Part shown: piece after piece, positions 1-1,273 of the stretch
Numbering within the stretch: the first letter of the stretch is position 1
How the letters are laid out: every line of letters begins with the position of its first letter
Assembly: GCA_902532195.1 (NCBI GenBank)
Contig: CACAHE010000003.1
Span: 47,307 to 111,306, forward strand
DNA from: an uncultured Pelagibacteraceae bacterium
GTDB taxonomy: Bacteria; Pseudomonadota; Alphaproteobacteria; Pelagibacterales; Pelagibacteraceae
Length of the DNA stretch: 64,000 bases
Reading direction: 5' to 3'
The notes under the pieces: model-generated
What the model saw: the letters and a program-made list of their open reading frames with translations, nothing else
Told to the model about the DNA's origin: nothing
Databases searched by the model: none
Made by a program: the position numbers and the translations under genes

Positions 1-953
1 ATCAACCATGGATGAGGATAGGATGATAATCCACCAGGTTTTACTTCTTGTCTAAATCTATCTAATTCTTTTTCATTTATTCTTCCTTCAAGGAATGCTC
101 TAGCATACATACCAGGAGCACTATGACCTTGAAAATAAATTAGATCTCCACCAAATTTATTATTTTTTGCCCTCCAAAAATGATTCATTCCTACATCATA
201 AAGTGTTGCTGCAGATGCAAATGTACCAATATGTCCACCTAGTTCGGGATTTTTTTTATTTGCTCTCACTACCATTGCTGCAGCATTCCATCTTATTAAT
301 GATCGAATTTTTCTCTCCAAATTTTGATCTCCGGGGGATTTTTTTTCTGCTTCGGGTGATATTGTATTTATATAAGGAGTATTCCTCGAAAGAATTAAAT
401 CAGATCCTTGTTTATATGAATGCTCTATTAATTGTTTAATTATATATTGAGCTCTATGTTTTCCATCTCTCTCTAAGACTGCTGATAAAGACTCCAGCCA
501 TTCTTTAGTTTCAATTGGGTCAATATCTTTTCCGTTTTTTATTTCTATTCTTTTTTCGATAGTTTTACTTTCTTTAGTTTTAATAATTTCTGTTTCTGTA
601 TTTTCCTTAAGAATTAAAGTTTCTTCAGCTTCTTTTATAATTTTTTCTGTATCTGAAGGTATTTTTTCAGGAGTATTATTTTCTTTTTCTGTTTCAATAT
701 TTTTTTTTACTTTAGTATTTACACCAGCTAAGGTTATAAGCAAATCACCTTTGGAGACTTTATCTCCTACCTTGACATTAACATTTTCCACTTTTCCATC
801 AAATGTTGAAGGGACTTCTACAGATGATTTGTCACTTTCTAATGTGACTATAGGATCATTTTTTTTAATATTCTCACCAGCTTTAACTAACACCTCAACT
901 ATTTCTACATTTTCAAAATCACCAATATCAGGAACAAATAATTTTTCAGCCAT
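1..953 (-). CDS. aceE: Pyruvate dehydrogenase E1 component (AceE-type, partial at window edge) with N-terminal lipoyl domain
   Basis: Minus-strand translation from ATG at 953 stays open to base 1: MAEKLFVPDIGDFENVEIVEVLVKAGENIKKNDPIVTLESDKSSVEVPSTFDGKVENVNVKVGDKVSKGDLL (lipoyl domain with ESDK lysine), a charged linker, then DPIETKEWLESLSAVLERDG..RSLIRWNAAAMVVRAN..LGGHIGTFASAATLYDVGMNHFWR..GGDLIYFQGHSAPGMYARAFLEGR (homodimeric E1p). Absent from the ORF track because no stop lies in the window. Confidence 0.93.
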   Translation of the reverse strand, partial: MAEKLFVPDIGDFENVEIVEVLVKAGENIKKNDPIVTLESDKSSVEVPSTFDGKVENVNVKVGDKVSKGDLLITLAGVNTKVKKNIETEKENNTPEKIPSDTEKIIKEAEETLILKENTETEIIKTKESKTIEKRIEIKNGKDIDPIETKEWLESLSAVLERDGKHRAQYIIKQLIEHSYKQGSDLILSRNTPYINTISPEAEKKSPGDQNLERKIRSLIRWNAAAMVVRANKKNPELGGHIGTFASAATLYDVGMNHFWRAKNNKFGGDLIYFQGHSAPGMYARAFLEGRINEKELDRFRQEVKPGGLSSYPHPWL

Positions 954-1196: not shown

Positions 1197-1273
1197 GGGC
1201 TGCTAGCTCAATTGGATAGAGCGCAGAGCTACGGACTCTGAGGTTGAGGGTTCAAGTCCTTCGCGGCCCACCA
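1197..1273 (+). tRNA. tRNA-Arg (anticodon ACG), CCA encoded
   Basis: GGGCTGC/GCGGCCC acceptor stem, CAGAG-CTACGGA-CTCTG anticodon arm, GAGGG-TTCAAGT-CCTTC T arm, terminal ACCA. Confidence 0.95.

Follow-up and report, generated by a model that had tools for sequence, protein, structure and literature searches.

The textbook scheme of 2-oxoacid dehydrogenases places the swinging arm on E2, and the locus described here raises the question of whether a dominant marine group has it on E1. The DNA analyzed was a 64,000-nucleotide stretch (the window; G000:C3:47307-111306) from a 0.97-Mb draft genome of 34 contigs and 78% completeness. At its left edge, an open reading frame on the minus strand ran from ATG 953 to position 3 without interruption, and an earlier note, made from the letters alone, had proposed that this frame fused a lipoyl domain (LD) to the N-terminus of the pyruvate dehydrogenase (PDH) subunit E1p, AceE (Table 1). 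Extending the contig leftward past the window edge carried the frame on to a full aceE of 1,024 amino acids (L004:7186-10260, minus strand). A tRNA-Arg gene (anticodon acg, window 1197 to 1273) lies between aceE and a thioesterase-like gene.

Table 1. Parts of the aceE fusion gene that fall within the window
Feature	Window position	Strand	Evidence
aceE 5' part (LD-E1p fusion, residues 1-317 of 1024)	1..953	-	open frame from ATG 953
Lipoyl domain (LD), residues 1-78	720..953	-	PF00364 and AlphaFold2 beta domain
Predicted lipoyl-lysine Lys42 codon (ESDKSS)	828..830	-	sequence; DK motif in family
Flexible linker, residues 79-141, ~63 aa	531..719	-	mostly pLDDT <50; varies among relatives
Conserved linker motif TEKIIKEAE, residues 102-110, predicted helix	624..650	-	119/131 loci; model
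E1p start, residues 142-317, with N-terminal segment aligning to E1p chain of PDB 9h1n	3..530	-	TIGR00759

Domain searches with the full protein confirmed the fusion. Pfam placed Biotin_lipoyl (PF00364) at residues 6 to 75 with 68 bits (E value, 6e-19; curated cut-off, 22.1), and also found Transketolase_N, PDH_E1_M (350 bits), and the TK C-terminal domain. The NCBIfam aceE model TIGR00759 gave a full-length equivalog match to residues 142 to 1022 (1,416 bits against a cut-off of 859.9), for a protein order of LD, linker, and complete homodimeric E1. The lipoyl motif reads ESDKSSVEVPS, with Lys42 in its DK motif. In an AlphaFold2 model (pTM 0.70), residues 1 to 77 form a beta domain (block pLDDT, 71 to 90), followed by a linker predicted mostly at low confidence, with one helix at residues 100 to 113, and then E1. 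When aligned to 1l8a, the Escherichia coli active-site residues H106, Y177, H407, E571, and H640 correspond to H241, Y312, H542, E706, and H775, and these positions were identical across 34 aligned sequences.

A stop or frameshift in other assemblies, or a separate start for E1, would leave two genes where the earlier note saw one, and neither was borne out for this gene. No in-frame ATG, GTG, or TTG occurs between the LD and E1 in the window's aceE, which rules out a separate E1 start; among relatives' linkers, 64 of 131 contain one of these codons, with ATG in 22. An assembly artifact is ruled out by some 130 loci of relatives at which the frame is likewise uninterrupted, single-contig genomes among them.

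The same architecture was found in all 14 genera of the family sample, and the earlier note's guess of SAR11 was right. Strong AceE matches came from 257 of 297 Pelagibacteraceae genomes and again from 14 of 14 genera, with the AceE N-terminus removed by a contig end in genera g465 and g468. The best 80 named matches were all to Pelagibacteraceae or Pelagibacter, the named relatives being Pelagibacteraceae (SAR11) single-cell genomes, metagenome-assembled genomes, and one bin labelled Candidatus Pelagibacter. No AceE was found in 24 genomes of the sister family of the order. In the Pseudomonadota phylum and class samples, AceE matches from outside the family began at query residue 113 or later among the matches listed, and no LD-E1p fusion outside Pelagibacteraceae was seen among them. 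None of 16 outside loci whose frames were long or whose scores were high carried an LD on E1. In other Proteobacteria, the long open frames that lie upstream of AceE (L182-L195) were considered as further fusions but contained no lipoyl domain. AceE operons outside the family were laid out in the usual way, E2 bearing LDs and E3 often doing so too. At the level of sequence, what had been noticed as a local oddity is a family-wide trait, accompanied by recurrent absence of the LD from E2. SAR11 has been reported to possess aceEF in a paper from which the words lipoyl and fusion are absent (PMC10030771). A search of the open-access literature found no description of an LD on E1p or of SAR11 lipoyl domains; a report outside it is possible.

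The gene adjoining aceE showed this absence directly. Encoded 6 bases downstream, aceF (L004:6253-7179, minus strand; 308 amino acids) begins directly at the E3_binding domain (PSBD, residues 7 to 41), continues into 2-oxoacid_dh (residues 79 to 298), and has no PF00364 match by Pfam, so that a count of lipoyl domains in the neighboring E2, suggested in the earlier note, came to zero. The model of the long form of PDH E2, TIGR01348, aligned only over profile positions 279 to 581 (347 bits against a cut-off of 552); the PSBD and a catalytic domain with DHRxxDG were present, and the N-terminal lipoyl domain or domains were missing. A structural model of AceF is similar to the core of E. coli E2p (4n72, 7b9k). 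Residues 2 to 52 of AceF match chain A of 9h1n and residues 142 to 183 of E1 match chain C (9h1n_C), and both partners of the predicted docking contact, the E1 N-terminal segment and the E2 PSBD, are kept.

A key consideration was whether any other LD in these genomes could serve the complex. In the window's genome, Biotin_lipoyl occurred in three places: E1, SucB, and a 122-amino-acid BCCP. SucB, the only other E2, carries its own LD and is encoded beside lpd, and Lpd has no LD by Pfam. Across 15 genomes with an LD-less E2 (the window's and 14 others, some of them 95 to 99% complete), PF00364 was found in at most three places, namely the E1-LD, a frame of about 430 to 450 amino acids (the size of SucB), and a frame of about 90 to 150 amino acids (the size of BCCP), the latter two being identified by sequence in the window's genome and by frame length in the others. 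Each genome tested encoded two E2-type proteins, and lipA was found in eight of eight, once below its cut-off. The E1-LD is the sole putative PDH-type lipoyl domain found in the LD-less-E2 genomes searched. The earlier note had suggested that E1 could present an arm of its own and so lessen reliance on E2 lipoyl domains. At the sequence level this suggestion gained strong support from the comparison, because in the window's genome and many relatives E2 is without an LD and PF00364 matches nothing beyond the E1-LD and the SucB- and BCCP-sized frames.

Family members differ in how many LDs they encode. An E2-LD was present at 74 and absent at 57 of 131 loci, drawn from two overlapping collections in which not all species are distinct and in which most genomes are incomplete drafts. 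Combinations of LDs on E1 and E2 were (1,1), (1,0), (2,1), (1,2), and (2,2), with two LDs on E1 in two genera. The lipoyl-lysine DK motif was kept in 137 of 137 family E1-LDs, and the lysine motif in 74 of 77 E2-LDs. The three exceptions, which read EDEEN, EDDEN, and EDDES, are all second E2-LDs; they belong to genera g460 and g466 (L218, L219, L221) and appear to be decaying domains.

On a tree of the E1 and E2 catalytic regions (73 rows), presence of the E2-LD required four changes if gains were allowed and seven losses if they were not, the loss-only count falling to six or four when branches with support under 80 or 95 were collapsed. A single loss, with all LD-less E2s in one clade, was rejected by the AU test (P = 0.0006); a scattered pattern is what one would predict were the E2-LD dispensable in the presence of an E1-LD. 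Repeated loss, in four to seven events when only losses are counted, is favored over repeated gain because all 23 core-genus E2-LDs cluster together, apart from E1-LDs (SH-aLRT 89, in an LD tree of only 80 columns); the same grouping speaks against E2-LDs having arisen anew from E1-LDs. The E1-LD itself may have come from E2 or from an LD-bearing E3 of the aceE-aceF-lpd operon type. A pattern like that of repeated loss could also result if lineages had exchanged aceF by recombination. Species with an LD-less E2 had a median E1 linker of 55 versus 49, a comparison with only four independent pairs. In one LD-less E2 clade (18 loci; L077-L089, L031, L032, L135, L215, and L216), DHRxxNG replaces DHRxxDG, and its reading as a sign of decay was dropped, as Asn614 is named in the title of an Azotobacter E2 structure (PDB 1dpc).

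The linker itself is otherwise variable but contains a motif, TE[KN][IL]IxxAE, at the 119 loci counted in Table 1; this motif was absent from E2 N-terminal regions and from the 17 E1s examined from outside the family. Some members encode a second AceE (L057-L061, L175, L228) of about 885 amino acids that is 52 to 55% identical, lacks an LD, and has no adjoining aceF. Extra aceE copies have been reported in SAR11 subclade IIIa (PMC10030771).

Taken together, SAR11 very probably has a type of PDH complex with its swinging arm on E1p. In E. coli, both E1p and E3 are brought into the complex by the PSBD, and the swinging arms are the lipoyl domains (PMC8421416). In the SAR11 version, the N-terminal LD would hang from AceE on a flexible linker, and the E1 dimer would bind the AceF PSBD through the segment at its own N-terminus. 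Tethered to the PSBD-bound E1 N-terminus, the LD would lie near E1, the E2 core, and E3 on neighboring PSBDs. It could then undergo reductive acetylation in an E1 active site, transfer the acetyl group to CoA in the E2 core, and be reoxidized by Lpd (encoded beside sucB) on other PSBDs. In LD-less-E2 genomes, a complex would have as many arms as it has E1 chains bound. That E1 is lipoylated and docks in this way, that the arm reaches far enough, and that the complex turns over are all steps we infer. In species with an E2-LD, more than half of the loci, the E1-LD is predicted not to be the sole arm. A bolder version, which we consider possible though unlikely, holds that the complex with an LD-less E2 is wholly E1 armed, that arm number is set by E1 occupancy and not by the E2 core, and that the linker helix (TEKIIxEAE) serves as a novel docking element, placing E1 or its LD on E2 or E3.

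Could the E1-LD instead be a redundant extra arm, with the main arm on another polypeptide? Retention of an E2-LD beside the E1-LD at 74 of 131 loci fits this explanation for those species, but in LD-less-E2 species it would require the SucB LD to act in trans. Such use is disfavored by the selectivity that E1p enzymes show for lipoyl domains of their own, and the E1-LD is nearer to relatives' PDH-E2 LDs (about 55 to 60% identity) than to the SucB LD (34%). The lysine motif was also never lost from the E1-LD, yet was lost from some second E2-LDs. Despite a precedent for trans use in the Corynebacterium PDH-ODH hybrid, in which OdhA uses the LDs of AceF (PMC7568260), we consider redundancy improbable.

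An E1-LD that serves assembly or regulation and carries no acyl group would suit the conserved linker motif that adjoins it, but is very hard to reconcile with a lysine motif kept without exception and with the finding of no other PDH-type LD in LD-less-E2 genomes. SAR11 genomes are streamlined, and the aceE of one genome (G032; L055) is split by frameshifts or stops, which may be an assembly error; decay or loss of function of the complex in LD-less-E2 species might be read from these facts. Open frames and invariant E1 and E2 active sites across the 57 LD-less loci, or across those aligned to represent them, together with conservation of the aceE-aceF pair and its order, make decay scarcely credible.

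If the arm does reside on E1p, the E2 arm was discarded after the move to E1, apparently several times. Close relatives with differing LD counts on E1 and E2 would then constitute a natural experiment on what dictates the arm's location, how many arms are needed, and in what way E1 occupancy limits flux.

Compared with AceE/AceF/Lpd of E. coli, the SAR11 complex shares a homodimeric E1p (residues 142 to 1021 aligned to 1l8a with 1,111 bits) and an E2 in which a PSBD precedes a catalytic core closest to E2p (7b9k), with docking segments retained. The systems differ in that E. coli E2p has its own LDs, to which the E1-LD matches in three stretches of 7b9k, whereas the window's genome encodes an LD on E1 and none on E2. 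Mitochondria provide an example of a second polypeptide besides E2 that contributes a lipoyl domain, the E3-binding protein (protein X), but protein X is not itself an E1, and the E2 there retains its own lipoyl domain or domains. The Neisseria p64k-type lipoyl-E3 fusions likewise carry an LD on a component other than E2, and the E1-LD matches both 1gjx and the LD-bearing E3 5u25; the SAR11 protein falls outside the p64k type, since its fusion partner is AceE, Lpd is free of LDs, and an E2 with no LD at all can occur. Redistribution of E1, E2, and LDs is also known from the actinobacterial OdhA/PDH-ODH hybrid, where a catalytic domain is served by the LD of another polypeptide (PMC7568260). 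In OdhA, E1o is joined to the catalytic domain of an E2 and the LDs are borrowed from AceF, whereas in SAR11 the LD itself appears to have moved to E1p.
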